A DNA stretch of 29,270 nt from a virus: positions 1-29,270 of the IMG/VR virus record IMGVR_UViG_3300018465_000012; one strand, given 5' to 3'. Below the pieces are notes generated by a model, which worked only from the letters and a program-made list of their open reading frames with translations, searched no databases and was not told where the DNA came from. Positions 5,244 through 26,271 of this stretch are shown here, one piece after another (the first letter of the stretch is position 1; each line of letters starts with the position of its first letter). Both the position numbers and the translations under genes were made by a program.

Positions 5244-5265
5244 TCGAGTAGTGGAGGGCTGAGTA

Positions 5266-5972: not shown

Positions 5973-5983
5973 GTCAGCCCCCT

Positions 5984-5993
5984 CCCTATAGGG
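5984..5993. other. Perfect 10-bp palindrome in intergenic gap
   Basis: CCCTATAGGG is a perfect palindrome in the 57-base gap between two small membrane-peptide genes. It sits 36 bases before the ATG at 6030 and could be an operator half-pair or part of a promoter. No clear -35/-10 pair is visible, and a 10-bp palindrome can arise by chance. Confidence 0.3.
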
Positions 5994-6029
5994 TGGTACT
6001 CTGGTGGTGAACCAACCGGAGGGGCTGAG

Positions 6030-6182
6030 ATGTACGACACTCTGATTGATGCACTCCGAGCCATCGGCTCGGTCTACGCCGACGTGCTGCGTTTCCTGGC
6101 CGACCACCCGGTAGCTACCGCCGTAGCCGCCGTGGTGGTCGGCCTTTCGCTGTTCCTGGGGTATCGGAGGGCTGTTCGATGA
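6030..6182 (+). CDS. 50-aa single-pass membrane peptide
   Basis: ATG at 6030 follows GGAGGGGCTGAG, a variant of the recurring junction element. An amphipathic N-terminal helix (about 1-25) precedes one hydrophobic segment (about 28-44, Val/Ala/Leu-rich), followed by GYRRAVR, a positive cytoplasmic anchor. The last codons read through GGAGGGCTG in another frame, and the stop overlaps the next ATG (ATGA). Holin-like architecture cannot be excluded, but one helix and the absence of a lysin nearby give no support. Confidence 0.65.
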   Translation: MYDTLIDALRAIGSVYADVLRFLADHPVATAVAAVVVGLSLFLGYRRAVR

Positions 6183-6487
6183 GTGAGGCACGAAAGTTCG
6201 CCATGGGGGATCTGATCACCAATGGATCGTCCGCCGGGAGGGTGCTCGCGTACGAGTGCGACCAACGCTGGAGAGCAGACGGTTACCGCATCCAGAACGT
6301 GGCGCTGGAGGGGTTCGGGGGGAACGTCGGTTTCAAGAGCTTCGTCCCAGACTATCTGGTCGGCTCGTGGCGTGCCCTCCCTACCGACTGGTCTCCGGTG
6401 GTGGGCGGGGGCCTGGAGGAGCGCTACGTCCAGACGTCGAACGGACGCTACCGGCGCGAGTTGCGCCGAACGGGGGAACAGCGATGA
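6179..6487 (+). CDS. Hypothetical phage protein, 102 aa
   Basis: ATG at 6179 overlaps the previous stop by four bases with GGAGGGCTG upstream. The sequence has several short strands (GDLITNGSSAGRVLAYEC and similar) consistent with a small beta-rich domain, and a basic C-terminus (about 85-102) with many Arg residues. Family unknown. The stop overlaps the next ATG. Confidence 0.65.
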   Translation: MSEARKFAMGDLITNGSSAGRVLAYECDQRWRADGYRIQNVALEGFGGNVGFKSFVPDYLVGSWRALPTDWSPVVGGGLEERYVQTSNGRYRRELRRTGEQR

Positions 6488-6738
6488 GCGAAAGGCAGCG
6501 TGCTGCCGATCGGTTGGCGAAGTGTGCGGAACGCTACGGCTGGACGCTGGAGGACGGGACCAGAAACCCGGTCTCTCAGATCATCACCTATAGGCGGTAC
6601 CGGCGCGGCAACCGAACAATCTCTGTCAGCTTCAGCCGACGGACCGGCCGGCTCAGTCGAGTCTTCTCGACCTTCGCCGAGGTGACCGGTCCGGACAAGC
6701 TGGGCCAGGCGGAGGCGATCATGGCACGGGAGGGCTGA
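6484..6738 (+). CDS. Basic hypothetical protein, 84 aa
   Basis: ATG at 6484 overlaps the previous stop (ATGA); a GGGGGAAC sequence lies just upstream. The product is Arg-rich, with an N-terminal helix followed by strands in the middle (TYRRYRRGNRTISVSF) and a C-terminal helix, and it ends in Arg-Glu-Gly-stop. The small alpha-beta-alpha layout with many Arg suggests nucleic-acid contact, but no family is recognised. Confidence 0.65.
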   Translation: MSERQRAADRLAKCAERYGWTLEDGTRNPVSQIITYRRYRRGNRTISVSFSRRTGRLSRVFSTFAEVTGPDKLGQAEAIMAREG

Positions 6739-6956
6739 TGGCGCCTTCGGCACCCGCTGGTAACCGGGGTCTGGTGGTGGCCATCATGGCCATCAGCCAG
6801 ATCGATGACATCTACACGTTCCACTGCAACGGGGACTGGCTGGGTGACGAGTGTCCCCACGTTCCGGACTGGGAGCCCGGCGAGACCTCCGGGCTGGAGG
6901 ACGTTCTGGGCGCGGTCACCGAGCACATCAAGGCGCACGCCGACAAGAAGGGCTGA
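6738..6956 (+). CDS. Acidic hypothetical protein, 72 aa
   Basis: ATG at 6738 overlaps the upstream stop (TGATG) and lies just after GGAGGG. An alternative ATG at 6786 would drop the first 16 residues. The acidic core contains a CNGDWLGDEC motif with two cysteines, a DWEPGE segment and a C-terminal helix ending in Lys-Lys-Gly-stop. Unknown function. Confidence 0.6.
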   Translation: MAPSAPAGNRGLVVAIMAISQIDDIYTFHCNGDWLGDECPHVPDWEPGETSGLEDVLGAVTEHIKAHADKKG

Positions 6957-6959
6957 ATC

Positions 6960-7127
6960 GTGCGAACCCTGTTCATCGTCATCTTGTTTCTGGACACCCT
7001 GATGTTCGCCGCGTGCACGGTCATCGGTCGATGGAGTGTCAGCGTCGGGCGCTTCGGCTGCGCCGTCCTGACGTGTGTGTACGCCGCCGAGTTGTGGGCG
7101 CTGGCTACCTACTGGCCGGAGAGCTGA
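6960..7127 (+). CDS. 55-aa two-helix membrane peptide
   Basis: GTG at 6960 follows GAAGGGCTGAATC. Two hydrophobic stretches (about 3-22 and about 33-50) are separated by a short GRWSVSVGRFG loop with two Arg, which predicts a hairpin with the loop in the cytoplasm. A two-helix hairpin of this size would fit a small holin or a membrane effector, but there is no lysin beside it, so the role remains open. Confidence 0.6.
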   Translation: MRTLFIVILFLDTLMFAACTVIGRWSVSVGRFGCAVLTCVYAAELWALATYWPES

Positions 7128-7130
7128 TCC

Positions 7131-7301
7131 GTGGCCTGGCCCGTCTGCGCGAGGACGGGGTTGCGCGGCTACGGGTCGGCCGCTGGTGCTCGACAGGCGC
7201 TCCGCCGGATCGAGCACGACGGCGTCAGCCGGCTGATCGTGCCGTGCGATGACTGCGCCCGCTGGCACGTAGTGGAGAGGGCCGATCGTGGCGAGCCTTA
7301 G
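7131..7301 (+). CDS. 56-aa small zinc-finger-like protein
   Basis: The GTG start is 3 bases after the previous stop. The pattern CARTGLRGYGS, then a helix (ARQALRRIEHD), then PCDDCARWHVV matches a common actinophage small-protein pattern in which a Cys, a helical A..AL segment and a C-terminal CxxCxxWH form a compact metal-binding fold. The function of that group is unknown. It overlaps the next GTG start (7288) by 14 bases. Confidence 0.6.
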   Translation: MAWPVCARTGLRGYGSAAGARQALRRIEHDGVSRLIVPCDDCARWHVVERADRGEP

Positions 7302-7863
7302 ACCCCCACCAGGCTGGACGGCCGAGCGGTACGCAACCCAGATGCGATGGAGCGTTCTCGGTATCCCGCCCCCCGGCTGGAAGCCCCCAGGGCGCCGGAG
7401 GCAGACCGAACCCCCACGGGCGCTAGATCGGGACCAGCTCACGATTCCAGGCTGTGAGTCGTCAAGAGATTTAGATACAGGGAGTACTGATGGACCACGA
7501 CCAGTGCGGAGCGTGCGGGACTCCAGTGGAGTGGACTCGGTTCTTCCTCCTGGACCGTCCCGGCGACAGTGCCTGGATCTTGGCAGCAACAACCCTCCCG
7601 GACGCGCTCAGGCCGGGGACCTGTCGGGCGAACGGGGGCTTGCACGGCCCCCGAACCGACTGGACCACCGTGGGCTCCCCGGTCGGTGGCGAGAGGCCGG
7701 AATCTCCGTCTACTGCCGTGCATGCGGAGAGGCGCTCGCGGTCGGAGCCCCCGGAGCGCGGGGAGGTATCGCCTGGCGACTAGCCGAACCCCGACCCCAA
7801 GGAACCTGGCTCTGCCTGAGCCGGGACGACACACCGCATGACCCGATCGAACTGGAGGGCTGA
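7288..7863 (+). CDS. Composite ORF: small N-terminal gene plus C-terminal part of a zinc-ribbon gene
   Basis: The 191-codon frame is open, but only its ends look coding. Codons 1-48 are G/C-rich in third position and encode a Pro/Trp-rich peptide with PPPGW repeated. The middle (about 7440-7690) has poor codon choice in this frame, and another frame (7490-7690) looks coding there. From about 7700 this frame again looks coding, with YCRACGEAL and a helix-strand tail ending in Glu-Gly-stop. The simplest reading is two genes plus a frameshift. A single 191-residue protein cannot be excluded. Confidence 0.45.
   Translation: MASLRPPPGWTAERYATQMRWSVLGIPPPGWKPPGRRRQTEPPRALDRDQLTIPGCESSRDLDTGSTDGPRPVRSVRDSSGVDSVLPPGPSRRQCLDLGSNNPPGRAQAGDLSGERGLARPPNRLDHRGLPGRWREAGISVYCRACGEALAVGAPGARGGIAWRLAEPRPQGTWLCLSRDDTPHDPIELEG
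7490..7783 (+). CDS. N-terminal part of a zinc-ribbon gene, likely frameshifted
   Basis: ATG at 7490 follows GGGAG with 5-base spacing and starts with MDHDQCGACGTPVEW, a first Cys-x2-Cys knuckle. Codon use is good to about 7690 and then deteriorates, with an Arg/Glu/Ser-rich tail that looks out of frame. The matching second knuckle (CRAC) lies downstream in the -1 frame, which ends at 7863. Together they would make a protein of about 124 residues with a complete four-Cys ribbon. A sequencing error, a genuine mutation or programmed -1 slippage near 7670-7700 would all explain this. Confidence 0.5.
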   Translation: MDHDQCGACGTPVEWTRFFLLDRPGDSAWILAATTLPDALRPGTCRANGGLHGPRTDWTTVGSPVGGERPESPSTAVHAERRSRSEPPERGEVSPGD

Positions 7864-13849: not shown

Positions 13850-15415
13850 GTGACGCTCGCTCCGGACATTGGCTGTCAGACGCCACGGATCGAGGTAGTA
13901 CCCGAGTTCGAGACCACGTCCGGCGAAGAGGCGTGTGAACTGGCCGAACTCTCCGGGCTCTACCTCGATCCGTGGCAGCGCTACATCTTGCGTCGCGCGA
14001 TGGGCGAGCGGGTTCTCCCCCCGGTGGTGGTCCCCGGTATCGAGCGACCGGCGGACGCGGCGAACTGGGCCACCCGATGGACAGCGTTCGAAGTGGGCCT
14101 GATCGTGGCCCGTCAGAACGGTAAGGGCTCGGCGATCGAGGCGAGGCAGCTAGCCGGCCTGTTCATCCTGGGAGAGAAGCTCCAGCTCTACTCCAGCCAC
14201 GAGTTCAAAACCAGCATCGAGATGTTCGCCCGAATTCGGGCGCTGATCACCAACACCGACTCCCTGCGCAAGTTAGTCCGCCGGATCACCAGTTCCCACG
14301 GTGACGAAGGCATTGAGCTGATGGACGGGCGACGGCTGCGATTCATCGCGCGCTCCACCGGCTCGGGTCGAGGATTCACCGCCGACACCACCTACCTCGA
14401 TGAGGCGTTCAACCTTCCGGGTGCCGCCATGGCCGCGATCATGCCGACGATGGCGGCCGTCCCCAATCCGCAGATCTGGTACGCGTCCTCCGCTGGGTGG
14501 GAGATTTCCCGCGTGCTCGGCAACCTCCGTCGCCGAGCCCAGCGTCTGGTGGCCAATCCCGACCCGGCCTCGCGTCTGCTCTACCTGGAGTGGTCCGCAG
14601 ACGATGAGGTCTGGATGGACGCCCGCACCGACCAGCGGGAGTTCTGCCTGAATCCCGAGAACTGGCGGCTAGCCAACCCCGGCTACGGCATCCGCATCAC
14701 GCCCGAGTTCATCCAGGCCGAGTTCGCCTCTATGCAGGAGGACCTCGCGCTGTTCGCGCGGGAGCGGCTGTCCATCGGGCAGTGGCCCGAGGACGAGTCC
14801 GGCTGGAACGTCATCCCGGAGAACGCCTGGCGCTCCCGGATGAACCCCGACGCGAGCCCCTCCGGCCGGCTAACGCTCGCCGTGGACGTCACCCCCGACC
14901 GATCCCGAGGGGTTATCGCGTTCGCGGGAAGCGCGACCGGTCCGGGCACCCGGGCGGGCGAACGCGTCGTGGAGATCTCCGACCGACGAAGCGGCGTGGA
15001 ATGGATTCCCGGTCGTCTCTCTATGCTGATTACCCGGCACAAGCCATCCTTGGTGGTGATCAGCCCCCGTGGACCGGCTGGCCCCTTGCTCCCGGACATC
15101 AGGACTGCGACGGAGGTAGCCCGCCGGAGGTATCGGACTGAGATCCGGGAGACCACCAGCCAGGAGGAGGCGCACGCGTGCCAAGCGTTCTACGACGGCG
15201 TGATGAGCAAACGGGACGTCGTCCAGCGCGGGGATCTGGCGCTGGATTCCGCCTTGGCCGGGGCAAGGCGAAAAGAGAACATGGAGGCGGGGACGTGGCA
15301 CTGGTCCCGCCGGACAACGTCCACCGACCTGTCGCCCCTGTGGGCGGCGAGCCTCGCACTGTGGGGACAGAGCGTCGCTCCGGCGCCACGAAAGTCCTGG
15401 GCGGAACTCGCGTAG
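13850..15415 (+). CDS. terL: Terminase large subunit, 521 aa
   Basis: This is the ATP-driven DNA-packaging motor and nuclease. The N-terminal ATPase has a Walker-A-like VARQNGKGS at residues 87-94 and a Walker B YLDEA at 182-186 with the catalytic Glu. The C-terminal RNase-H-fold nuclease starts with LAVDVTPD (about 343-350), the first catalytic Asp. Length is normal for the family. The GTG start at 13850 has no clear Shine-Dalgarno, so expression may depend on the preceding small gene. The 3' end overlaps a small membrane-protein gene, and no adjacent small subunit is recognisable. Confidence 0.95.
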   Translation: MTLAPDIGCQTPRIEVVPEFETTSGEEACELAELSGLYLDPWQRYILRRAMGERVLPPVVVPGIERPADAANWATRWTAFEVGLIVARQNGKGSAIEARQLAGLFILGEKLQLYSSHEFKTSIEMFARIRALITNTDSLRKLVRRITSSHGDEGIELMDGRRLRFIARSTGSGRGFTADTTYLDEAFNLPGAAMAAIMPTMAAVPNPQIWYASSAGWEISRVLGNLRRRAQRLVANPDPASRLLYLEWSADDEVWMDARTDQREFCLNPENWRLANPGYGIRITPEFIQAEFASMQEDLALFARERLSIGQWPEDESGWNVIPENAWRSRMNPDASPSGRLTLAVDVTPDRSRGVIAFAGSATGPGTRAGERVVEISDRRSGVEWIPGRLSMLITRHKPSLVVISPRGPAGPLLPDIRTATEVARRRYRTEIRETTSQEEAHACQAFYDGVMSKRDVVQRGDLALDSALAGARRKENMEAGTWHWSRRTTSTDLSPLWAASLALWGQSVAPAPRKSWAELA

Positions 15416-15552
15416 CGCTAGCCCTAGGTGCGCTGGTGGGGTTCGCTACAGCTATGACGGGGGTGGCCATGCTGTCGGTACCGGCGGCCATGATCATCGG
15501 AGGCGGCGCGGTGTTCGCAATCTGCCTATTCGTGGACGTGGACCGTGGCTAG
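15361..15552 (+). CDS. Two-helix membrane protein between terminase and portal, about 63 aa
   Basis: The frame ending at 15552 encodes a basic N-terminus (GTERRSGATK) followed by two hydrophobic helices (VALALGALVGFATAMTG and PAAMIIGGGAVFAICLF) separated by a short turn. I chose GTG at 15361, which overlaps the terminase by 55 bases; a weaker ATG at 15454 would keep only the second helix intact. The 3' end overlaps the portal start by 8 bases. A small membrane protein in this position is unusual; holin or superinfection function is possible but unsupported. Confidence 0.55.
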   Translation: MGTERRSGATKVLGGTRVALALGALVGFATAMTGVAMLSVPAAMIIGGGAVFAICLFVDVDRG

Positions 15553-16963
15553 CCTCGCCGCCCGGATTCTCGGGCGAGACCGTTCCGCCGTGGAGGTCTA
15601 CTCCGCTGAACGAGCCGGCGTGGACGATTACGTTCACATGCTCAACACCTGGCGATACGCCGGAAACACCTACGGCACGGGCTACAGCCAGACCCTGGTA
15701 GGTGGCAACGAGCGGGCAGCCGACGCCGGCTCGATGGGAGCGGCGGCGTTCGCCTCCAACGGCATTGTGTTCGCCTGCATGCTGGTGCGGATGTTGGTAT
15801 TCTCCGGGATTCGCTTCACCTACCAGCGCTTGCGCAACGGTGCCCCGGCGGACATCTGGGGGGACGCCACCCTCCGACTCCTGGAGACCCCATGGGACGG
15901 CGGGACCACCCAGGATCTGATTGCCCGCATGGTTCAGGACGCCGATCTGATGGGCTCGGCCTACATCATCAAGGACACGCCGCTGGCCCGCATCGGCGGG
16001 GACGAGACCACCACCGAGCTTCTCCGGCTGGATCCGCTGAACGTTCAGATCGTGCTCGATCCGGTGAAGCGTGGAAGCGCCACCGTCGGGTACCGGAAAC
16101 TGGGCTACGCCTACAGCGAGTACGGCGGGACGTCGGCTGATGACATGGCCGTGTTCCTGCCCTCCGAGGTAGCCCAGTTCACGCCCACCCCTGACCCGTC
16201 CGCGAAGTTCCGGGGCATGTCGTGGCTGACGCCGGTCATCCGTCAGATCGACGCGGACAACCTGATGGAGATTCATCGCGCGAAGTTCTTCGAGCAAGGC
16301 GCGACGCCGAACATGGTGATCAAGCATCCGCCGGAGGTCACGCCCGAGGAAGCGCGAGAATTCCGTGACCTGTTGAACGCGAGCCACGGTGGGGTGGCCA
16401 ACGCGTACAAGACCCTCCACCTCGGAGGTGGGGCCGATCTCACGGTGGTTGGCCGGGACATGGAGCAAGTCAGCTTCGCCGCCGTTCAGGGCCACGGAGA
16501 GACGCGCATCGCCGCCGCTGCCGGCGTGCCCCCGGTCATCGTCGGCCTGAGCGAAGGACTTCAGGCGGCCACCTACTCCAACTACGGCCAGGCCCGACGC
16601 CGGTTCGCGGACGGAACCGCCCACCCGTTGTGGCAGAACCTCTCGGGCTCCCTGCAAAAACTCCTCCCCATCGGCACCGAATCGCGCCTCTGGTACGACA
16701 CCCGGGACGTGCCGTTCCTACGGGAAGACGAGAAGGACGCGGCGGAGATTTTCTCCCTCAAAGCGGGAGCGATTCAAACGCTGGTGAACACCGGATGGGA
16801 ACCTGACGCGGTCATAGCGGCCGTGAATTCGGGTGATGTCCGTATGCTGACCGGTACTCACACCGGTCTGACCAGCGTGCAGCTACAGGCACCGGGTGCC
16901 GGGGATTCAGGGGCTGAACCCGCGAACGAGTCAAGCGAGGCCCCTGGAGGGACAGATGGTTGA
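15545..16963 (+). CDS. Portal protein (HK97-type), 472 aa
   Basis: Twelve copies would form the ring at the capsid vertex through which DNA enters and leaves. Hallmarks of the HK97-like portal family are RGMSWLTPVIRQI (about 223-235), HRAKFFEQGATPNMVIK (about 244-260) and the C-terminal AAAGVPPVIVG segment. The N-terminal clip/stem sequence also fits, with a hydrophobic NGIVFACMLVRMLV stretch near 72-85. GTG at 15545 overlaps the previous gene by 8 bases, and the end overlaps the protease by 8 bases. The C-terminal 25 residues are Gly/Glu-rich and disordered. Length is normal. Confidence 0.95.
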   Translation: MASLAARILGRDRSAVEVYSAERAGVDDYVHMLNTWRYAGNTYGTGYSQTLVGGNERAADAGSMGAAAFASNGIVFACMLVRMLVFSGIRFTYQRLRNGAPADIWGDATLRLLETPWDGGTTQDLIARMVQDADLMGSAYIIKDTPLARIGGDETTTELLRLDPLNVQIVLDPVKRGSATVGYRKLGYAYSEYGGTSADDMAVFLPSEVAQFTPTPDPSAKFRGMSWLTPVIRQIDADNLMEIHRAKFFEQGATPNMVIKHPPEVTPEEAREFRDLLNASHGGVANAYKTLHLGGGADLTVVGRDMEQVSFAAVQGHGETRIAAAAGVPPVIVGLSEGLQAATYSNYGQARRRFADGTAHPLWQNLSGSLQKLLPIGTESRLWYDTRDVPFLREDEKDAAEIFSLKAGAIQTLVNTGWEPDAVIAAVNSGDVRMLTGTHTGLTSVQLQAPGAGDSGAEPANESSEAPGGTDG

Positions 16964-17954
16964 CACCCTGATTCGGCCGGTGGTTCGAGAGGACCTCATT
17001 CGTGAGGCGGTGTTCCGGACGCGGGACGCCGACACGGACCAGTCCACGGGGGACGGGTTCACCATCGCTGGCCACGGCGCGGTGTTCAACGTCCGCACCA
17101 CGATCGACTCCTGGGAAGGCGCCTTCGAGGAGGAGATTCACCCCGGCGCGTTCAAGCGCACCCTTCGCAACCAGACGCCGATGATGCAGTACGACCACGG
17201 TCGTCACCCGTTGATCGGGTCCATCCCCCTGGGTGTCTGGACCACGGCCCAGGAAGACGACCAGGGTGTCTGGGTGGAGGGGCGCATCACCGACAACTGG
17301 TTGATGCAACCCGTTCGGGACGCGATCGAGAACGGCGGAGTGAAGGGCATGTCCTTCCGCTTCTCGGTGGTGCGGGAGACCTGGGTCGATCAGGCCGGGA
17401 CTCGGATCAAGCCGGAGGATGTAGAACTCGCGCTGTGGGCGCCGGACCGGCTTGGCTACGAGGTGGCCCTACCGTTGGTGCGTCAGCTCAAAGAGGTTCG
17501 AGCCCCGGAGATTGGCCCCGTGGCGTGGCCCGCCTACGTTCAGACCGACGTCGGTGTGCGCTCCCTACCGGGGCTCGATGTGGCTGACGGCCGGCGTGTC
17601 GTCATCGATTTGGCCCGCCTGGATTCACCTGCGATGAGGGCCACCCTGGCGCGCGCCGTGTTTTTGGCCGACAATGCGGAACGTCAGCACGTTGACGGCT
17701 CGCGTCACGACTCGGACCTTGCGCCCGACGCCCCCGCCGATCCGGAACCCATCGAGGGTGCCGAAGAACCGGCCACGGACGTTCACCGCGACTCCGACCC
17801 CGGAGAGCACCCGTCGCCGGTAGGCAACGCGGTGCCCATCGATATCAAGAGCCGACGCGCCAAGATTCTCGCGGTCACCCGTTCCTGCCAGAGCTACGTC
17901 ACTTCTCTGGAGGACGAACCCCATGGACAACCAGGAGACCGAGGTCCTCGATAG
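16956..17954 (+). CDS. Prohead maturation protease (HK97 U35-type), 332 aa
   Basis: This serine protease would cleave scaffold or capsid N-terminal domains during head assembly. Family signatures are EEIHPGAFKRTL (about 59-70), the His motif QYDHGRHPLIGSI (His81) and the Ser motif KGMSFRFSV (Ser133). The domain ends near residue 215. The C-terminal 115 residues are acidic and Pro-rich and could serve as a scaffolding extension. ATG at 16956 follows GGAGGG. The 3' end overlaps the major capsid gene by 32 bases, unusually long for this window. Confidence 0.93.
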   Translation: MVDTLIRPVVREDLIREAVFRTRDADTDQSTGDGFTIAGHGAVFNVRTTIDSWEGAFEEEIHPGAFKRTLRNQTPMMQYDHGRHPLIGSIPLGVWTTAQEDDQGVWVEGRITDNWLMQPVRDAIENGGVKGMSFRFSVVRETWVDQAGTRIKPEDVELALWAPDRLGYEVALPLVRQLKEVRAPEIGPVAWPAYVQTDVGVRSLPGLDVADGRRVVIDLARLDSPAMRATLARAVFLADNAERQHVDGSRHDSDLAPDAPADPEPIEGAEEPATDVHRDSDPGEHPSPVGNAVPIDIKSRRAKILAVTRSCQSYVTSLEDEPHGQPGDRGPR

Positions 17955-19461
17955 CGGACCGGCTCTGAACCACTCCCAGGCCGTCAACCGGCTGCGGGAG
18001 ATTACCGATGAGATGTCCCGCCTCGCTGAGCTCGATGAGCCGACAGTGGAGGACGAGGCGTACTTCGGCGAACTCCGGGAGGAGTTCAAGTCGGTGGACC
18101 TTCACCGCAAGAAGCTGGAGCGGCGCGCTCAGCTTGCCGAGATCCGGGACGCCGCCCGGGGCATCGGCTCGTTCCGCCTGGAGGCTGGAGCCCGCCGCGT
18201 CGGCCGGGACGCGCTGGACCCGAACAAGCACGACGCCGACATGTTCGGCGACCCGGCGAGCATCGAGGACTTCCGGGGGCGCGATGGGCGTAACCCGTGG
18301 GCGCTGGACGAGATGCGCGTCTTTGGCCGGAAGCCGGAGGAGATTCGAGCCGAACTCCACGCCCGTGCGCTTTCCGCGCTGGAGCGGGTCCGTTCCACCA
18401 CCGATGACATCCGGCAGGCCGGTACCTCGATCCTGGAGCGCCAGGACGACAGCGAAGGCACCATCGCGCGACTGGTTCTGGCGACTACCTCCCCGGCGTA
18501 TCAGCGCGCCTTCTCGAAGGAAGCCCGATTCGAGGGCAACATGTTGACCGAAGAGGAGCGCGCGGCGGTCACACACGCGCGCTCCCTCATGCGGGCCATG
18601 TCGCTCACGGGCTCCGGCGGTGGCTACCTGATCCCGTTCCAGTTGGACCCGACGGTGATCATCACCGCGAACGGTTCGAACAACGACATTCGCCGGGTGG
18701 CTCGCCAGGTGGTGGCGACCGGGAACAAGTGGAACGGCGTTAGCGCCGGCCTGGTGTCGTGGTCGTGGGACTCGGAGGCGTCTGAGGTCTCCGACGACGC
18801 GCCGACCTTCGCCCAGCCGGGCATCGACATCTTCACCGCGCGGGGCTTCGTCCCGATCAGCTTGGAAGCAGCCGAGGATGAGGCGAACGTCGCTTCTACC
18901 GTTGGTGAGCTTCTCGCCGGTGGTCGGGATGTTCTGGAAGCGGCGGCGTTCATCAACGGCACCGGCACCGGCCAGCCGTGGGGCATCGTGGCCGCGCTCA
19001 CCGGCACCGGCTCGGAGGTCAACTCGGCGACCGCTGACACTCTGGCCGTGGGTGACATCTACAGCCTCTGGGGCGCGCTGCCGACCCGCTACCGCTCCAA
19101 CGCCAACTGGATCGGTAACACGCTGATCTACAACCGTATCCGCCAGTTCGACACGGCGGGCGGTGCGGCGCTGTGGACGACGATCGGCAACGGCCAGCCG
19201 CCGAACCTGCTGGGTGGTGCGCCGCTGGAGTCCGAGGACATGACGGGCACCATCACGGCCGCGCAGAACAACCGGATTCTCGTGGTTGGCGACTTCCGCA
19301 ACTACGTCATCGCGGACCGCATCGGTCTGACGGTGGAGTTCATCCCGCACCTGTTCGGTACGACCAACGGTCGGCCGAAGGGACAGAGGGGATGGTTCGC
19401 GTACTACCGTACTGGGGCCGATTCTGTTAACGATGCCGCTTTCCGGATGTTGAACGCATAA
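17923..19461 (+). CDS. Major capsid protein (HK97 fold), 512 aa
   Basis: The N-terminus (about 15-80) is charged and coiled-coil-like, as in the delta/scaffolding domain removed by the prohead protease. The HK97-fold core begins near MSLTGSGGGYLIPFQLDP (226-243), followed by the typical E-loop and A-domain pattern, including AAAFINGTGTGQPWGI and the C-terminal FAYYRTGADSVNDAAFR. The stretch from 80 to 225 before the core is longer than usual and may be an additional processed region. ATG at 17923 follows GGAGG with 10-base spacing. The gene has the strongest codon bias of the window, as expected for the most abundant virion protein. Confidence 0.95.
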   Translation: MDNQETEVLDSGPALNHSQAVNRLREITDEMSRLAELDEPTVEDEAYFGELREEFKSVDLHRKKLERRAQLAEIRDAARGIGSFRLEAGARRVGRDALDPNKHDADMFGDPASIEDFRGRDGRNPWALDEMRVFGRKPEEIRAELHARALSALERVRSTTDDIRQAGTSILERQDDSEGTIARLVLATTSPAYQRAFSKEARFEGNMLTEEERAAVTHARSLMRAMSLTGSGGGYLIPFQLDPTVIITANGSNNDIRRVARQVVATGNKWNGVSAGLVSWSWDSEASEVSDDAPTFAQPGIDIFTARGFVPISLEAAEDEANVASTVGELLAGGRDVLEAAAFINGTGTGQPWGIVAALTGTGSEVNSATADTLAVGDIYSLWGALPTRYRSNANWIGNTLIYNRIRQFDTAGGAALWTTIGNGQPPNLLGGAPLESEDMTGTITAAQNNRILVVGDFRNYVIADRIGLTVEFIPHLFGTTNGRPKGQRGWFAYYRTGADSVNDAAFRMLNA

Positions 19462-19499: not shown

Positions 19500-19853
19500 A
19501 TGCCAGCATTCGACGCGACCGGCCCGGTCGAGGGCGACTTCGTCACCCTCGCCGGTTCGGCCGCGCGAACCGCGAACGGCTCCGGGTCCCCGTACGTCAT
19601 GGGGGCTCGGGGCACGCTCCGGTTGACTCTGGCCGTGACCGCGTCCAGCGGCACCACGCCGAGCTTGACCGTCACGGTCGAGAACTCGGCCGACGGGTCG
19701 ACGTGGTACACGGCGGGCACCTTCGCGGCGAAGACAACCACGGCCACTGAGCGCAAGTCCTTCAGTGGTCTCGATCGCTTCGCCAGGGTGTCGTGGACGA
19801 TCACCGGCACTACGCCGTCGTTCACGTTCAGCGTGGCGGGGGAGGCGGTCTGA
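19500..19853 (+). CDS. Beta-sandwich protein, candidate capsid decoration (paralog 1), 117 aa
   Basis: The sequence is Thr/Ser-rich and all beta, with motifs SSGTTPSLTVTVENS, DGSTWYTAGTF and RVSWTITGTTPSFTFSV. It is a paralog of the next gene: the two align across most of the length, especially SGTTPxL, DGxxW and GTTPSFTF. Its place right after the major capsid protein suggests a decoration or head-fibre protein, though a tail tube or spike component is possible. ATG at 19500 follows GAGAGGAAG. High Thr content is common in virion surface proteins. Confidence 0.7.
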   Translation: MPAFDATGPVEGDFVTLAGSAARTANGSGSPYVMGARGTLRLTLAVTASSGTTPSLTVTVENSADGSTWYTAGTFAAKTTTATERKSFSGLDRFARVSWTITGTTPSFTFSVAGEAV

Positions 19854-19854
19854 T

Positions 19855-20196
19855 ATGGCCTACCAGGTGGTCACCGTCCACCCGTCGACGGCGCGCACCG
19901 CCACCGGCAACGGCCAGGCGATAGTCGAAGCGGACCGGGGCAGCACCTTGGCGCTCCTGGTCAACGTGACCGCTGTCAGCGGTACCACCCCAACGCTCGA
20001 CCTGGCCGTGCAGTGGTCGGTGGACGGGACCAACTGGGCTCCGGCCGAAACACCCGACACCTTCACCCAGATCACAGCCATCGGGCTGAAGGCAAAGACA
20101 TTCGCCGTGAAGGCGCCCAGCTATCGCGTCGTGTGGACGATCGGGGGAACCACTCCATCGTTCACGTTCACCGTTCACGGCTACATGACGAACTGA
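19855..20196 (+). CDS. Beta-sandwich protein, candidate capsid decoration (paralog 2), 113 aa
   Basis: This tandem duplicate of the previous gene shares VSGTTPTLDLAV, SVDGTNW and VVWTIGGTTPSFTFTV with it, but differs in the N-terminus and in the loop between strands. The duplication suggests either two decoration proteins at different capsid sites or one that evolved a new binding surface. ATG at 19855 lies 1 base after the previous stop, with GGGGGAGGCGG upstream. Surface localisation is an inference from context. Confidence 0.7.
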   Translation: MAYQVVTVHPSTARTATGNGQAIVEADRGSTLALLVNVTAVSGTTPTLDLAVQWSVDGTNWAPAETPDTFTQITAIGLKAKTFAVKAPSYRVVWTIGGTTPSFTFTVHGYMTN

Positions 20197-20206
20197 GGAG
20201 CCAGAC

Positions 20207-20698
20207 ATGGAGCAGGGCTACATGGAGCGGATTCGGGCGAAGCTGCCGAAGGGGGTGGACCCCCGGCTGGACAACCGCTCGGGGACGGACCGTCCGCCGG
20301 TTGAGCGCGACCCGGCCGTCCCGCAGCAGGTCGACGGCCCGGACCTGATGCACCAGGCCGAGCACGCTGAGGCCGTGGCGCGAAAGGCGAAGGAGGCCGA
20401 AGAGGTGGAGCGTAAGGGCATGTTCTCGCCCGGCGACCACTCCCTTGGCGACCTGGAGGAGCGCGGCGGCAACGACGCTGGCCAGGCGGACCGGCGCTTG
20501 GAAACGGACCCGGCGAACGCCGGCTCAGCCTCCACCGACGTGGCGGAGGGCGACGTCACCACTGCCGCTGGTCCGCTCCAGGCTGAAGAGGTCGCGAAGG
20601 ACGCGCGCCGCGCCGCTGGTGGGGCAGACTCCGAGACGGCATCCGCTGCCCCCGGCGAGCGTCGCGCGCGTGGCCGGGCGGCCAACAGCAAGGAGTAG
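20207..20698 (+). CDS. Hydrophilic, disordered head-region protein, 163 aa
   Basis: The protein is almost wholly charged and polar (Ala, Glu, Asp, Arg, Gly) with a short helix-prone stretch (about 48-70) and no hydrophobic core, so it is probably disordered. Its place in the head operon fits an accessory head protein. It is not a typical scaffold, because scaffold genes usually precede the capsid gene. ATG at 20207 follows GAGGAG. The stop is followed by the next gene after three bases. Confidence 0.6.
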   Translation: MEQGYMERIRAKLPKGVDPRLDNRSGTDRPPVERDPAVPQQVDGPDLMHQAEHAEAVARKAKEAEEVERKGMFSPGDHSLGDLEERGGNDAGQADRRLETDPANAGSASTDVAEGDVTTAAGPLQAEEVAKDARRAAGGADSETASAAPGERRARGRAANSKE

Positions 20699-20701
20699 TA
20701 G

Positions 20702-20929
20702 ATGGCTGAGTTCCTTCGGGCCAGGGAGTCCTTCTCGGGGGCCTGCCTCGAACCGGGCAGAGGTTCCGTACAGGTGGACGTGGTAGCGGGTCGGACCTAC
20801 CGGGACGACCATCCGGCGGTCGCCGGACGTGACCACCTGTTCGAGCCGTTGACCGGCGACGGTTCCGACCCGCCCCCCGTCCCCCCGTCGGGACCGAAGA
20901 TGACCCGGCGTAGCAGCAAGACCGAGTGA
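20702..20929 (+). CDS. Small hypothetical head-region protein, 75 aa
   Basis: ATG at 20702 follows AAGGAG with 7-base spacing. The first 45 residues look folded and beta-like (SVQVDVVAGRTYRDD). The rest is Pro-rich and ends in a basic tail (KMTRRSSKTE). It is the last gene before a strong hairpin and probably ends the head transcript. No family is recognised. Confidence 0.6.
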   Translation: MAEFLRARESFSGACLEPGRGSVQVDVVAGRTYRDDHPAVAGRDHLFEPLTGDGSDPPPVPPSGPKMTRRSSKTE

Positions 20930-20931
20930 CT

Positions 20932-20969
20932 GAACAGCCCGGGAGTTCGGGAGCGCTCCCGGGCTGTTC
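20932..20969. terminator. Perfect 13-bp inverted repeat, probable terminator of the head operon
   Basis: GAACAGCCCGGGA (20932-20944) pairs with TCCCGGGCTGTTC (20957-20969) around a 12-base loop. A nested palindrome GGGAGCGCTCCC (20949-20960) offers an alternative inner fold. There is no T-run, which is usual for actinobacterial terminators. It begins 3 bases after the previous stop codon. Confidence 0.75.
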
Positions 20970-20970
20970 A

Positions 20971-20991
20971 CTATCCACACCGTTATCCACA
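20971..20991 (+). promoter_or_regulatory. Two DnaA-box-like 9-mers
   Basis: CTATCCACA (20971-20979) and TTATCCACA (20983-20991) are direct repeats with 12-base spacing. The second is a perfect match to the general bacterial DnaA box, and the first differs in one base. They lie between the head terminator and the next ribosome-binding site. Two boxes are too few to call an origin; host DnaA control of the downstream gene, or chance, remain possible. Confidence 0.35.
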
Positions 20992-21011
20992 ACCTGTGAA
21001 GGAGCGGCCCA

Positions 21012-21734
21012 GTGTCCGCCACCGGAGGAGTATCCGACCCGGCCGGGTCGCTGTCCGCCACCCTGATCAAAGCCGATGGCCGGCATGTCGAGTCCGTGCC
21101 GAACATGACCCCCTGGCCCGCTGAGACGGTGGGGCTTGACCACATTCGGAAGTACGCCGCGTCGGGGCCTGGCCTGCCCAGCCGTGTCAACGCCTGGAGG
21201 CGGGACAACTACCTCCGCCTCATGGTCGGCGCAAAGAAGGTGCTACTGGCTCGGAAGTTCGGCATCCCTACGTTCAACGGCCAGCTTTGGATCTCGGTGT
21301 TCCGTGGGGACGGGTCGGTGGAGGACTACGGTCTGGCCTCGCTCCGTGTGGTCACCACGGCCGGTGTCGGCTACATCGTGGACGCCTTCCAGAACACCAC
21401 CGAACTGGAGAACCTGAAGTTCCACGGGGTGGGCACCGGCAGCACGGCCGAGGCCGTGGGCGACACCGCGCTGGTGACCGAATCCACCACGGTCCTCAAC
21501 CCGGACTCGACCCGGGCCACCGGGTCGACCACGGAAGCGGCGGCGAACATCTACCGCACGGTGGGAACGGTGACGTTCGACGGCTCGGCGGCGATCGTGG
21601 AGCACGGCATCTTCAGCCAGGCGGCCACCGGTGGCGGCACCCTGCTTGACCGCTCGGTGTTCTCGGCGATCAACGTTGCCTCGGGTGACTCCATTCAGTT
21701 CACGTACGACTTCACCGTGACGGCCGGGTCCTAG
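21012..21734 (+). CDS. Fibre-like virion structural protein, 240 aa
   Basis: The N-terminal half includes a helical/strand segment with NYLRLMVGAKKVLLARKFG. The second half has the pattern FHGVGTGSTAEAVGDTAL, EHGIFSQAATGGGTLLDRS and a beta ending, which I recognise from phage structural proteins in which a repeated beta-strand domain follows a short attachment region. Function in those is assumed to be tail fibre or head-fibre type. GTG at 21012 follows GAAGGAG. It is a single gene flanked by hairpins on both sides, so it may be its own transcription unit. Confidence 0.6.
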   Translation: MSATGGVSDPAGSLSATLIKADGRHVESVPNMTPWPAETVGLDHIRKYAASGPGLPSRVNAWRRDNYLRLMVGAKKVLLARKFGIPTFNGQLWISVFRGDGSVEDYGLASLRVVTTAGVGYIVDAFQNTTELENLKFHGVGTGSTAEAVGDTALVTESTTVLNPDSTRATGSTTEAAANIYRTVGTVTFDGSAAIVEHGIFSQAATGGGTLLDRSVFSAINVASGDSIQFTYDFTVTAGS

Positions 21735-21744
21735 ACCTCGGACG

Positions 21745-21783
21745 GTGGCCGGTGCCCCAACCCTCACCGGGGGCACCGGCCAC
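21745..21783. terminator. Perfect 14-bp inverted repeat, probable terminator
   Basis: GTGGCCGGTGCCCC (21745-21758) pairs with GGGGCACCGGCCAC (21770-21783) around an 11-base loop. It starts 10 bases after the stop of the fibre-like gene and ends 7 bases before the AAAGGAGGA ribosome-binding site of the next gene. No T-run is present. Confidence 0.75.
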
Positions 21784-21802
21784 GTGCTGAAAGGAGGACC
21801 CC

Positions 21803-22192
21803 GTGGGTTCCTACGGGACGTTCACCCAGAACGACGCGAGCGCGACCAGCCGAGCGATCGCGGTCTACAACGAGACCGACGGTGACCGCGTCCAGATCGT
21901 CCGGGAGCACTCCGCTACCGCCGTGACCCACGGGACGTGGACGCTGGCGACCACGGCAGCCACGGTTATCTCCGCCGACGCTCAGCGCGTCGGCGTGTGG
22001 ATCACCAACACGGGTGGCGCTCGGGTGTATATGCGGTTTGACACGACCGCGCCGACGTCCACGGTTCATCACTGGTACCTGGAGCCCGGGGAGCGATACG
22101 AGATGCCCTACTGGGGAACGGAGTTGGCCGTGGCGATGCTGGCCCAGAGCGCGAGCGGCGCGCTCACCTACGCTCTCGCGACGACGGCCTGA
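21803..22192 (+). CDS. Small all-beta virion-type protein, 129 aa
   Basis: GTG at 21803 follows AAAGGAGGA. The sequence shows alternating beta strands with a VGVWITNTGGARVYMRF motif and a C-terminal EPGERYEMPYWGTELAVAML segment, similar in style to small virion proteins that sit on fibres or capsids (strand, Gly turn, strand, Pro-Gly turn). It precedes the SGNH spike by 3 bases, so the two are probably assembled together. No precise family. Confidence 0.6.
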   Translation: MGSYGTFTQNDASATSRAIAVYNETDGDRVQIVREHSATAVTHGTWTLATTAATVISADAQRVGVWITNTGGARVYMRFDTTAPTSTVHHWYLEPGERYEMPYWGTELAVAMLAQSASGALTYALATTA

Positions 22193-22195
22193 GTC

Positions 22196-23932
22196 ATGCC
22201 TGTCTTCAGCCGGAAGAACATCGGTCGTCCCGACGTCTGGTACATCTGCTCTCACAGCTACTGCGACGGCAACGCGGGAGCGGTAGACCCGACCGGCCGT
22301 CTGGACAACATCTTCGCCCAGCGCTTCGACCTGGAGTTCACGAACGTCCGTCAGCTTTCGGTGGCCGGTAGCCGGCTCCTCGTGGAGGGCGCGAACCAGG
22401 GAGGGTGGGCCACCTTCTGGCGCATCACCTCCGGGCAGAAGTTCAGCAACCTCCGAGGCGCCCCGTACGTGGGCGAGGGCGGTGCGCTGCTAACGGTGTG
22501 GGGGATCAACGATCTGGGGTCACTCGGTGGCGCTACCACCCAGATTCGGGCTGCCTACGTCCACGCGACGCGGGCGATCATCTCGCGCTGGCGAGCGTCG
22601 TTCATCGCTGAGGACACGGCCGTGTCCGGCAAGCTCGTGCCGACCTACGGCGGCACGTGGACAGCGGAGTCCTCCCAACAGGACCGGGCCTCCGGCGGCA
22701 CGTGGAGGTATCACGCCACCACGGGCGGGACAGTGACGATCACCCTCCCGTCCGACTATGACGGCGAACCTGTCGTAATGTGCTTCATCGGTCGGATGGG
22801 CAACAACGGCGGCACGGTCACCTTCAGCGGCACAGCCGGCGTAACGGGCACGATCAGTACCAACGACATCATGCCAGCGGCCACGCTGACCAACTGCCCC
22901 GTGGTCAAGCGGGTCACGAACCTGACGTCCGCTAATGCGGGGCAGACGATCATCGCGACCGTCACCGCGAACTCGGGGCTGGTCTACTACGACTGTTCCT
23001 GGCTGGAGGCGAAGTCCCCTCCGCCGGTCATCTGGGCGAACATCGCGCGTCTGCCGAACGCCGGCTATACCGCGTCCTACCCGTCGTGGACCGCGCAGAC
23101 CGGTTCACACGACTCGGACGTCAACGCCGTCAACGCCGACGTGGCTTCGATGATCGGCAGCGAATTCGATGGCATGGTTCAGATAGCGGACATCGACAAC
23201 AAGCTAGGTCCGAAGACCGCCAGTCTCTTCTGGGACAACCTTCACCCCAATGAGCGCGGCGCGGCGATGTGCGCCGACGCGGTTGAGGAAGCCGTTGAGC
23301 GGCTGACTCCATCGGGGCTGTATGGTCTTGCCGGCCAGATGAGCGTTCCCGCTCAGAAGTCAGCGGCACTGCGCATCCCATCGCGAGCGGGATTCTGGTA
23401 CGCACCCGAGCACGCGGCGCGAACCACCTACACGGCCGTGGCGGGGCACATGTTCGCCTACCCCTTCTACATCACCGAATCCCGAACGAGCTGGACCAAC
23501 TGGGGCGTGGAGGTTACCACCGCGTCCGCCACCACACCCGGAACGCTGCGTATTGGTCTCTACCGGGACACGAACTATCAGGGCTATCCCGATGTCAACC
23601 TCCAGGAATTGACCGTCTCTGGTGCGCTGTCGGTTGGCACCACCACGGGGTCGAAGACCGTCAATGCGGGCGGCTACATCTGGCGCCCGAACCCGGGCCT
23701 CTACTGGCTGGTCATCAAGATCGAGACGATCGGCTCGGCCACCAACGTCTACTCGGCGATGACCGGTCCGAACCGGTGGATTCCTTCGCCCACTACGGGC
23801 GGTCTGTTCAACCCCGGTAACTACATCGGCTACCAGCTCACCGGCCAGGCTGCTGGCGCCCTGCCCACCACGTACCCGACGGGAGCCACCCAGGTGTCCA
23901 CTGGTCCCGCCGTGATGATGCTGCGTGGCTAA
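22196..23932 (+). CDS. SGNH/GDSL-hydrolase-like spike protein, 578 aa
   Basis: The sequence fits an SGNH hydrolase with a divergent block I: VWYICSHSYCDGNAG has Ser21 where GDS-L usually has its Ser. Block II is VAGS (Gly58), block III is GIND (Asn105) and block V is WDNLHPNERG (Asp347, His350). A beta-rich domain of about 130 residues (about 145-275) is inserted between blocks III and V and could bind glycans. Residues 380-578 form another beta domain, likely for receptor binding or trimerisation. Phage SGNH spikes deacetylate or de-esterify surface glycans. ATG at 22196 is 3 bases after the previous stop. Whether the unusual block I is active needs testing. Confidence 0.75.
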   Translation: MPVFSRKNIGRPDVWYICSHSYCDGNAGAVDPTGRLDNIFAQRFDLEFTNVRQLSVAGSRLLVEGANQGGWATFWRITSGQKFSNLRGAPYVGEGGALLTVWGINDLGSLGGATTQIRAAYVHATRAIISRWRASFIAEDTAVSGKLVPTYGGTWTAESSQQDRASGGTWRYHATTGGTVTITLPSDYDGEPVVMCFIGRMGNNGGTVTFSGTAGVTGTISTNDIMPAATLTNCPVVKRVTNLTSANAGQTIIATVTANSGLVYYDCSWLEAKSPPPVIWANIARLPNAGYTASYPSWTAQTGSHDSDVNAVNADVASMIGSEFDGMVQIADIDNKLGPKTASLFWDNLHPNERGAAMCADAVEEAVERLTPSGLYGLAGQMSVPAQKSAALRIPSRAGFWYAPEHAARTTYTAVAGHMFAYPFYITESRTSWTNWGVEVTTASATTPGTLRIGLYRDTNYQGYPDVNLQELTVSGALSVGTTTGSKTVNAGGYIWRPNPGLYWLVIKIETIGSATNVYSAMTGPNRWIPSPTTGGLFNPGNYIGYQLTGQAAGALPTTYPTGATQVSTGPAVMMLRG

Positions 23933-23965
23933 CTTCCGGCTAGCTGTCGGCTAACTAGCCGGAAG
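23933..23965. terminator. Perfect 11-bp inverted repeat, probable terminator next to an RBS
   Basis: CTTCCGGCTAG (23933-23943) pairs with CTAGCCGGAAG (23955-23965) around an 11-base loop. It starts immediately after the SGNH stop codon and abuts the GGGAGGTGA ribosome-binding site of the repeat protein, so it could either terminate transcription or tune translation of that gene. Confidence 0.6.
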
Positions 23966-23977
23966 GGAGGTGACCAG

Positions 23978-25447
23978 TTGCCGGTCATCCTGATTCCCCG
24001 CCAGGCCGCGACCGGGAGCACCTCCCAGTCGGTGGCCGGGTCGGTGGCGCCCACGGGTGCGCTCACCAAACGGGTGATCCGATCCGTCGCCGGATCTGTC
24101 GCCCCCACCGGGGCCGAGACCGAACGAACCTCTCGGGTCCTGGCCGGCTCGGTCACGCCGACCGGCGCCATCGTCAAGCGGACGAACCGCGCGGTGGCCG
24201 GCGTGGTCGTCCCGTCGGGAGCACTGGCCAGAGCTTGGTCTACCAGCCGGGGGCTTTCGGGTGCGATAGCTCCCGCTGGAGCCACCACTCGTTCTACCGA
24301 GAAATCTCTTCTCGGTAGCGTTGCCCCAGGAGGCGCGCTAAGTCGTCAACCACGGAAGCCAGCATCAGCTTCGATAGCTCCGACCGGATCTCTGGGATCA
24401 GCGCGGGGGATCTTCCGCCAGGTGGCTGGCTCGGTGACTCCTGGTGGCTCATTCGCCAAGCGAACCGCGCGCGCCCTCCCCGGCGCCACCGTGCCGACGG
24501 GTGCGACGACCAAGACGGCCGCGCGGGCGCTGAGTGGGGCGCTGGCGCCCTCGTCCACTCTCCAGGGGGTTAGGGCCGCCCTTCGGTCTCTTGCTGGCTC
24601 TGTGACCCCCACAGGCGGTTTGTCGCGTCAGGCACGACACCCGGTCGGGGGACCGATCACCCCCGGCGGGTCACTGGCCCGCCAGGCGGTACGAAGCTTG
24701 GCCGGCTCGATTACACCGACGTCGGCTCTGGGCACACTGAAGGCCGCACTCCGATCGCTCTCCGGTGGGGTCAGCCCCACGGGTGCCGTCGCGCGACGCA
24801 CCGGTCGAACAGGTTCAGGCTCGGTTCAACCTTCGAGCGTCACACTCAAGCGAACGGCTCGAACCTTGAACGGCGGCGTCACCCCACCAGGGTCGCTGCT
24901 GCGCCAGGCTGTCCGGTCTCTTCTCGGTGCGATCATGCCGACCGCCACCAGCACGGGTGAGAAGCTCTCCGGCGGTCCTACCCTCAAGTCGGTGGATGGT
25001 GCGATCACCCCACTGGGTGCGAGCACGCGCCGCACCGTTCGTCCCTTGGCCGGAATGGTCCAGCCGTCCAGCGCGACCAGCCGCGCCGCCGCGCACAACC
25101 TTGCCGGGGGCTCCACCCCGGCGGGTTCCCTCGCGGCCTCGCGCGTGGTTCTTCGTACGCTCTCGGGCGGGGTCACGCCAGGTGGGGTTGCCCGCCGAGC
25201 GTCCGCCATGTCGGTGGCCGGGTCGCTCGCGACGGGGGGTGCCCTGGCCCGCCTGGTTCGCCGCGCTCTCGCTGGCGGCACCACTCCCGCCGGAGGCGTC
25301 GCGTTCCAGGACGCGAGTGCGAAGCCCTCCGCCACGTTGGTGAGCGATGATGAGCTATCGGCGTTCCTGTCGTCTAATGAGGCCAGGGGGGTGGCGCTGG
25401 TGTCTGGCGTGACCAGGACCTCCGGACCAGTAGGGAGTAAGCCGTGA
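23978..25447 (+). CDS. Repeat protein of 23 units of 18-20 residues, 489 aa
   Basis: Residues 18-447 are 23 contiguous repeats with the consensus xLAGSVTPTGALxRxxxR. Seventeen units are 18 residues long, five are 20 (units 4, 7, 10, 13, 20) and one is 24 (unit 17), so the longer units recur almost every third repeat. Conserved Gly, Pro and Gly-Ala at fixed positions suggest a solenoid or extended fibre; basic residues end most units. A 17-residue N-terminus and a 42-residue tail (with DDELSAFLSSNEARG) are non-repetitive. TTG at 23978 follows GGGAGGTGA with 7-base spacing. The stop overlaps the connector gene (GTGA). It is probably a structural fibre, but no homolog is known to me with certainty. 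Confidence 0.85.
   Translation: MPVILIPRQAATGSTSQSVAGSVAPTGALTKRVIRSVAGSVAPTGAETERTSRVLAGSVTPTGAIVKRTNRAVAGVVVPSGALARAWSTSRGLSGAIAPAGATTRSTEKSLLGSVAPGGALSRQPRKPASASIAPTGSLGSARGIFRQVAGSVTPGGSFAKRTARALPGATVPTGATTKTAARALSGALAPSSTLQGVRAALRSLAGSVTPTGGLSRQARHPVGGPITPGGSLARQAVRSLAGSITPTSALGTLKAALRSLSGGVSPTGAVARRTGRTGSGSVQPSSVTLKRTARTLNGGVTPPGSLLRQAVRSLLGAIMPTATSTGEKLSGGPTLKSVDGAITPLGASTRRTVRPLAGMVQPSSATSRAAAHNLAGGSTPAGSLAASRVVLRTLSGGVTPGGVARRASAMSVAGSLATGGALARLVRRALAGGTTPAGGVAFQDASAKPSATLVSDDELSAFLSSNEARGVALVSGVTRTSGPVGSKP
24029..25318 (+). repeat. Array of 23 protein-coding repeats (54-72 bp units)
   Basis: The 1290 bases encode units of 54 bp (17), 60 bp (5) and 72 bp (1) with no extra residues between units. 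Nucleotide similarity between units is lower than the protein pattern, so the duplications are old or have been diversified by selection on codons. Confidence 0.85.
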
Positions 25448-26271
25448 GCTACGTCGTGGGGCAACAGGCTCAACTCTCCACCACCGTGCAGGTCGACGGG
25501 GTCCCGACCAACGCCACGATGGCCCTCGTGGTGACCAAGCCAGACGGTACCTCCGTGTCCCCGACGATCGGCACGACCGGCACCGGCCAGTACGAGGCTC
25601 TCGTCACCGTGGACCAGCCGAGCGTCTGGACCTACGTCTGGACCTCCTCCGGTGCGGCGGTGGGTAGCGACCGGGGCTCGTTCTACGTTCGGGCTTCAGG
25701 TGCGCGGATCATCTCGCTGCGGGAACTGAAGCAGCACCTGAACAAGGATCTCGACAGCACCGAGGACGATGAGGAACTGGCCAACTTCATCGACGCGGCG
25801 CAAGACATGATCGTGGCCGAGTACGGCCCGATCCTGCCGACCATCTACAGCGAGGTTCACGCCGGCTGGGATCACGTCATCCTGTTGAATCATCGGCCCG
25901 TCCTGTCGATTACCAGCGTGTCAGAAAGTTTTGACAGTGGAGCGCCCATCCCCGTCTCGGGGTCCGGATACGACTTGGACAAGCCCACGGGTCTCCTGCG
26001 TCGTTTCAGTGCCCCTGGCGTGCCCGCTCTCTGGGCGGGCGCCTACCAGGGCGTACAGGTGGTCTACGTCGCCGGACAGGACCCCGTGAGTCAGAAGGTG
26101 CGCCTTGCGGCCATGGAGCTGGCGGCGCATCTGTGGCGCAATACCCAGGTGGGGCGAGCGCGGCGCACCCGGGCGGGGGCTGAGGACGAGGGGGCGGCCG
26201 TGGGTCTGGGCTACTCGATGCCGTACCGGGTGCGTGAGCTTCTCGGGCGCAAAAAGGGTTGGGTGCTCTGA
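25444..26271 (+). CDS. Head-tail connector (gp6-like) with N-terminal Ig-like domain, 275 aa
   Basis: Residues 1-85 form a beta-sandwich-like domain (GQQAQLSTTVQVDGVPTNA, then strands ending in GSFYVRA). From about 89 follows the connector region: ISLRELKQHLNK, DDEELANFIDAAQDMI and a helical C-terminus with VRLAAMELAAHLWR. This is the HK97-gp6/SPP1-gp15 adaptor pattern, which attaches under the portal. The extra N-terminal domain is unusual for this family and may be a fusion with a decoration-type domain. GTG at 25444 overlaps the repeat gene (GTGA). Confidence 0.8.
   Translation: MSYVVGQQAQLSTTVQVDGVPTNATMALVVTKPDGTSVSPTIGTTGTGQYEALVTVDQPSVWTYVWTSSGAAVGSDRGSFYVRASGARIISLRELKQHLNKDLDSTEDDEELANFIDAAQDMIVAEYGPILPTIYSEVHAGWDHVILLNHRPVLSITSVSESFDSGAPIPVSGSGYDLDKPTGLLRRFSAPGVPALWAGAYQGVQVVYVAGQDPVSQKVRLAAMELAAHLWRNTQVGRARRTRAGAEDEGAAVGLGYSMPYRVRELLGRKKGWVL

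Follow-up and report, generated by a model that had tools for sequence, protein, structure and literature searches.

The window, that is, the whole stretch of DNA that was analysed, comprises 29,270 bases and corresponds to an entire virus record, the source virus being an uncultured actinobacteriophage. From the capsid gene onwards the gene order is capsid, several small genes, a phrog_5417 gene, an SGNH-hydrolase-like gene, the repeat gene under study and a head-tail adaptor gene, followed by probable tail genes. The relevant features are the following.

13850-15415: terminase
15545-16963: portal
16896-17954: protease
17923-19461, plus strand: major capsid protein, 57-58% identical to those of Gordonia Nymphadoravirus phages
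21012-21734, plus strand: phrog_5417 protein (PHROG match)
22196-23932, plus strand: SGNH-hydrolase-like protein, 578 aa, motifs GIND and DNLHPNE, 66% identical to the same-place protein of contig L002
23965-23970, plus strand: Shine-Dalgarno sequence GGGAGG of the repeat gene, read from the sequence
23978-25447, plus strand: repeat gene (putative rod), 489 aa, TTG start, from open reading frame and translation
24029-25318, plus strand: array of 23 units, residues 18-447, consensus xLAGSVTPTGALxRxxxR, from unit division and self-similarity
23978-24028, plus strand: leader, residues 1-17 (MPVILIPRQ...), with a weak, by-eye likeness to MPFPVLPPQ of the syntenic proteins of L002 and L005
24191-24250, plus strand: long unit 4, 20 residues, from unit division
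24359-24418, plus strand: long unit 7, from unit division
24527-24586, plus strand: long unit 10, from unit division
24695-24754, plus strand: long unit 13, SLAGSITPTSALGTLKAALR, the nearest to the 20-residue unit of the family, from unit division and the family profile
24917-24988, plus strand: unit 17, 24 residues, degraded motif, from unit division
25097-25156, plus strand: long unit 20, from unit division
25328-25417, plus strand: C-terminal tail, residues 451-480, with a 10-residue period (SATLVSDDEL / SAFLSSNEAR / GVALVSGVTR), a proposed docking element, from lag analysis
25444-26271, plus strand: head-tail adaptor, TIGR02215-like, phrog_442, 275 aa, its start overlapping the stop of the repeat gene
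25444-25710, plus strand: N-terminal filamin-like Ig domain of the adaptor, from a match of profile A11 to filamin-C Ig domains (7ouu, E = 1e-5)

In the phage ThankyouJordi the connector lies directly behind the capsid gene, so that the cassette 19500-25443 is an extra in the window. Despite its location in the head module, the small protein at 19500-19853, which comes after the capsid protein, has a match to phrog_9522 ('major tail protein', E = 3e-13), and it is perhaps an Ig-type head decoration. Also to be noted is a perfect 11-bp inverted repeat (CTTCCGGCTAG/CTAGCCGGAAG) at 23933-23965, in the gap after the SGNH-like gene and ahead of the Shine-Dalgarno sequence of the repeat gene; its folding energy is ordinary in respect to shuffled sequences (z -1.2), and it may tune translation of the repeat protein.

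The division of residues 18-447 into 23 units without remainder, as claimed in the original prediction, is borne out both by the unit division and by the peaks of self-similarity over shuffled sequences, which are found at lags 56 (z 13.4), 18 (z 12.9), 74 (z 12.2) and 112 (z 10.1). The unit lengths run 18 18 18 20 / 18 18 20 / 18 18 20 / 18 18 20 for units 1 to 13 and 18 18 18 24 / 18 18 20 / 18 18 18 for units 14 to 23, 21 of the 22 spacings being 18 or 20 and the remaining one 24. The longer units do fall, as had been proposed, at positions 4, 7, 10, 13, 17 and 20, in steps of 3, 3, 3, 4 and 3 units; six long units placed at random would give gaps of 3 or 4 only with p = 0.002. The further suggestion of an ancestral three-unit module of 56 residues is retained only in part: 18-18-20 triplets do occur in 27 contigs, yet across the family the number of 18-residue units between successive 20-residue ones varies from 0 to 4 (0 in 12 cases, 1 in 8, 2 in 12, 3 in 4 and 4 in 2), with an excess at two only, which rejects a strict module. 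As judged from these sequences, the 56-residue block is the local form in the window of a looser rule, in which the three-unit period is a tendency.

At the DNA level the units are most alike at second codon positions (identity 0.57-0.61), less so at first positions (0.44-0.46) and least at third positions (0.29-0.32), which lie barely above the base-composition expectation and are therefore saturated, and the self-matches of the array are short and diverged. The agreement at second positions together with the saturation of third positions points to an old array which is held by selection at the protein level, and saturation rules out a recent slippage array or tandem expansion. The protein is rich in A, G, S, T and P; a collagen-like protein is ruled out by the lack of G-X-Y, and an RTX beta-roll by the lack of GGxGxD. 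A tape-measure role is ruled out by the position of the gene and by the free variation in unit number, the fuller IMG/VR arrays among the matches listed holding about 10 to 34 units. For the length-determining spacer suggested earlier there is no support.

A DNA pattern describing a pair of units at an 18-residue spacing was run over IMG/VR and matched more than 119 stretches; among the matches listed 44 of 119 contained genuine arrays. The same pattern in the genomes of 84,980 bacterial and archaeal species yielded none among the 119 matches listed, these being collagen-like or chance matches. Such a difference is strong evidence that the family, as defined by sequence, is enriched in viruses, a statement which concerns the matches listed and is not proof of absence elsewhere. 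A family profile was built from 43 modules of 56 residues from 27 contigs, the window being left out, and it recognises the window protein at E = 1.7e-85 over 9 modules, whereas the best of 300 shuffles reaches about 6 bits. On the strength of this match, the window protein is a member of an undescribed, virus-enriched repeat family, hereafter the TPxG family. Its conserved positions are Thr 7, Pro 8, Leu/Ile/Val 12 and Lys/Arg at 14 and 18 (85-89% of the 18-residue units for the last two), to which Gly 4 and Gly 10 are added as positions fixed by the search expression itself, and the 20-residue unit has a separate, ALTTIKAVLR-like consensus. The spacings are 18 (238 cases), 20 (91), 19 (3), 23 (2) and 15 (1) among the matches listed, the prevalence of even lengths being partly a selection effect, as the choice of arrays favoured 18/20 spacing. 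This makes independent confirmation important, and it is provided by the repeat proteins of L002, L005 and L006, which were found by synteny only and have a different motif, ATLSGAGALSATGTQ, in units that are also of 18 or 20 residues. In agreement, the units of the divergent podovirus MW202615, which lacks TPxG altogether, are spaced by 18 and 38 (18+20).

Previously defined clusters overlap this family to some extent. PHROG 18536 and PHROG 26712 match nine and seven of 32 aligned members, and the window protein itself matches the latter weakly (E = 1.5e-4); both are unannotated clusters, recorded without any rule on the length of units or the gene context. The repeat sequence was not found in the published literature, and tblastn of the protein, the consensus and the relatives against 50,697 phage genomes gave nothing close, low-complexity masking being a likely reason; MW202615 was the only one to appear in the phage genomes. 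In this genome (MW202615.1) a plus-strand gene at 4716-7709 encodes a repeat protein of 998 aa whose N-terminal part is Ig-like and jelly-roll-like; the annotation of the record places antisense and tiny ORFs over it, which is likely a misannotation.

With respect to domains and neighbours, the family member of contig L010 has an N-terminal LamG domain (E = 2.7e-22), and jelly-roll-like N-terminal domains were noted by eye in other relatives. Genes downstream of the repeat genes include head-tail adaptors, portal and head morphogenesis proteins, and in several relatives the repeat gene lies just ahead of terminase or portal, with no recognised Ig partner. Tail-fibre families and small proteins occur among the upstream neighbours. 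The commonest family there is phrog_5417 (14 of 72 upstream neighbours in contigs L010-L128, among the matches listed), a recurrent partner that in the window sits two genes upstream of the repeat gene.

The folding of the array was analysed with AF2 using a 32-row alignment. For the window protein the model is all-beta in the array, with a short strand per unit (pLDDT 67.6, pTM 0.43), and for the more regular relative L106 the array is regular, all-beta and reaches about pLDDT 80 (pTM 0.60); the pLDDT values of 67.6 and 69.7 for the models denote moderate confidence. PDB sequence searches with the repeat protein gave no match, and neither model had a significant Foldseek match in the PDB, the best E values being 0.29-0.75 and the matches mainly parallel beta-helices. 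Against BFVD, 12 matches were obtained at E below 0.001, with TM at most 0.36 and mostly to uncharacterised proteins. As AF2 yields confident but unreal beta-solenoids for repeat sequences (PMC11795689), we rely more on the even lengths of the units, which are expected where beta strands have to keep alternating between inside and outside, and on the alternating conserved positions, which fit beta strands. The solenoid or extended rod of the original prediction is favoured by the even lengths and the beta model, which fits a solenoid with moderate confidence. Beta-solenoids usually rise by 4.8 Å per coil, from which 23 coils would extend over an estimated 11 nm. The left-handed beta-helix (LpxD, GlmU) likewise has 18 residues per coil and gave the top, insignificant, Foldseek matches. 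It was rejected, since the family units lack [LIV]-[GAED]-X2-[STAV]-X on three faces and have Lys/Arg at positions 14 and 18.

A further set of results came from the adaptor, which in these phages has about 90 extra N-terminal residues; profile A11, searched against the PDB, was made of nine such stretches. Relatives of the adaptor were gathered from IMG/VR with two Ig-bearing adaptors and then a third. A repetitive protein is encoded directly upstream of all 22 Ig-bearing adaptors (autocorrelation z 5.6-21), ending within about 30 nt, and adjacent to none of the 35 Ig-less relatives, one of which is borderline (L308, z 5.9 at lag 32); three further loci, two of them with repeat proteins, were left unclassified. 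Fisher tests, which ignore common descent, give 5e-16 when computed as 22 versus 34 and 4e-9 after a rough collapse to 12 versus 20. As the adaptor loci share ancestry, the association could be a single linkage inherited in a clade. In the converse direction, Ig homologues lie at +1 or +2 from the repeat gene in 7 of 8 cases (p = 2.4e-5) in the set found by the repeat pattern, among the matches listed. The original prediction had considered that phages rarely keep a repeat protein at this location, which does not hold for phages whose adaptor has the N-terminal Ig-like domain, all 22 of which keep one. In the Ig-less relative L299, a 664-aa ORF with another type of repeat, of 15 residues (LxWDIxGxV type, z 16.7), lies 303 nt off, about 300 nt upstream of position 2299.

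The position before the adaptor is not bound to one motif. The contigs L002, L005, L006 and L008 were reached through their adaptor or SGNH-like protein; in each, a repeat protein of another motif is encoded immediately ahead of the adaptor (those of L002, L005 and L008 are not among the matches of the TPxG profile), and in these slot-sharing contigs the SGNH-like neighbour is 64-66% identical and the adaptor 41-48%. The lags of repeat proteins upstream of Ig-adaptors differ, being 18/56/74, 20/40/60, 22/44 or 23-24/48, and the L008 protein (ARAG type) has an N-terminal domain in common with the TPxG-type protein of L098 (40% identity over 178 residues, E = 4e-28). The repeat motif is replaced while the slot and the type of end piece stay.

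The C-terminal tail is conserved across motif types in its period of 10. In the window tail alone lag 10 is the top lag with z 2.9, rising to z 6.1 in the tails of its clade of five and to z 18.3 in the last 46 residues over 21 proteins; the tails of proteins with other repeat motifs give z 6.2. Family members with no Ig neighbour often end, as judged by eye, in a basic tail instead: L025, L035, L037, L042, L066, L075 and L088, which have no adjacent Ig-adaptor, present short basic amphipathic C termini such as AMFKAMFKRMR, possibly another kind of anchor.

The best-supported reading of the repeat protein is that of a rod on the virion. The rod or fibre of the original prediction is favoured by viral enrichment, by the LamG domain in L010 and by the place of the gene in a head-connector module, while virion presence itself is deduced from these. 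The gene product would be a rigid, extended beta-solenoid of 23 coils. Its C-terminal tail of 10-residue repeats would be fixed to the filamin-like Ig domain at the adaptor N terminus, probably by beta-strand addition; filamin Ig domains bind partner strands in this way. In a mycobacteriophage twelve adaptor subunits make up the ring (PMC13033339), and up to 12 rods could therefore project from the neck as fibres of a collar. At its unattached N-terminal end the rod would bear or contact a host-surface domain, with a putative role in adhesion: in several relatives this would be the LamG or jelly-roll-like domain fused there, and in the window phage the SGNH-like protein of the upstream gene is the likely partner, as suggested by gene adjacency. 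If the rod acts as a spacer, selection would keep the coil geometry (18 or 20) and the tail, with the sequence drifting or being swapped. Overall, we consider it somewhat probable that the protein is a beta-solenoid rod docked through its tail on the adaptor Ig domain, forming a neck (collar) fibre with the SGNH-like protein. It may be that only one branch is anchored at the neck, as other members adjoin terminase or portal, have no recognised Ig partner and often carry basic tails.

The location of the cassette between the capsid and adaptor genes, with phrog_5417 and other small proteins upstream, would also suit a rod that decorates the capsid shell together with these small proteins and the SGNH-like protein, and phi29 head fibres do contact capsid Ig domains (PMC6542822). 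We find this unlikely, though worth consideration, because it is the adaptor, encoded directly downstream, whose Ig domain is associated with the rod, and because the window capsid protein is close to that of phages devoid of the cassette. Attachment elsewhere, such as at the tail tip, in a tail fibre or adhesin that includes the SGNH-like protein and lies beside the head module by chance, would agree with the tail-fibre families among the upstream neighbours and with the relatives whose gene precedes terminase or portal; the strict coupling to an Ig-bearing adaptor in one branch makes it quite improbable.

A different question is whether the protein is folded at all. An unstructured or elastic Gly/Pro/Ser spacer would account for the composition and for the lack of a PDB match, and the AF2 models are not trustworthy enough on repeats to oppose it. 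However, disorder should tolerate changes of one residue in length, and the units are even in length, with T7-P8 and L12 conserved over very divergent sequences, so that we regard a flexible spacer as improbable. As for a protein external to the virion, such as an assembly factor or length ruler, nothing beyond the repeat itself was found in its favour, and the lectin-type N-terminal domain in L010, viral enrichment and the place in a structural module make it highly improbable.

A neck rod would have precedents. The neck passage structures of the lactococcal 936 phages are fibres ending in CBM or carbohydrate esterase domains, and the likeness, which extends to TP901-1, lies in neck fibres with host-binding or esterase ends and in a variable outer part on a conserved anchoring part (PMC6669499). 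In those collar whiskers, however, a BppU-like domain at the N terminus forms the ring and the shaft is a trimeric coiled coil; for the window protein there was no such Pfam, PHROG or PDB match and no helices in the modelled array, and the window rod would be an all-beta array with a putative C-terminal anchor tail and the Ig domain on the adaptor itself. In phage Milano, neck protein 1 touches the collar through its beta-sandwich (PMC10491603). The gp8.5 protein of phi29 is similar in being an accessory fibre of the virion that is encoded among the head genes and contacts Ig domains, but has a helix-turn-helix supercoil shaft with an N-terminal base and stands on the capsid (PMC6542822); no sequence relation to it was seen, and the array of the window protein is modelled as all-beta. 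The rod system would be a variant form of neck fibres that combines Ig-adaptor, repeat rod and tail.

More tentatively, and with somewhat less confidence than for the neck rod, these results may reflect a general plug-in system for neck fibres of tailed phages, in which a conserved coupling of a filamin-like Ig socket on the adaptor and a C-terminal plug of 10-residue repeats holds rods of unrelated beta-repeat types, with 18/20, 20, 22 or 23-24 residues per coil, that are freely exchanged. If true, many viral repeat proteins that are now unannotated would gain a function and a point of attachment, the additional Ig domain of some head-tail adaptors would be recognised as a socket for fibres, and there would be a clean case in which coil length and attachment are kept by selection while the sequence is replaced.
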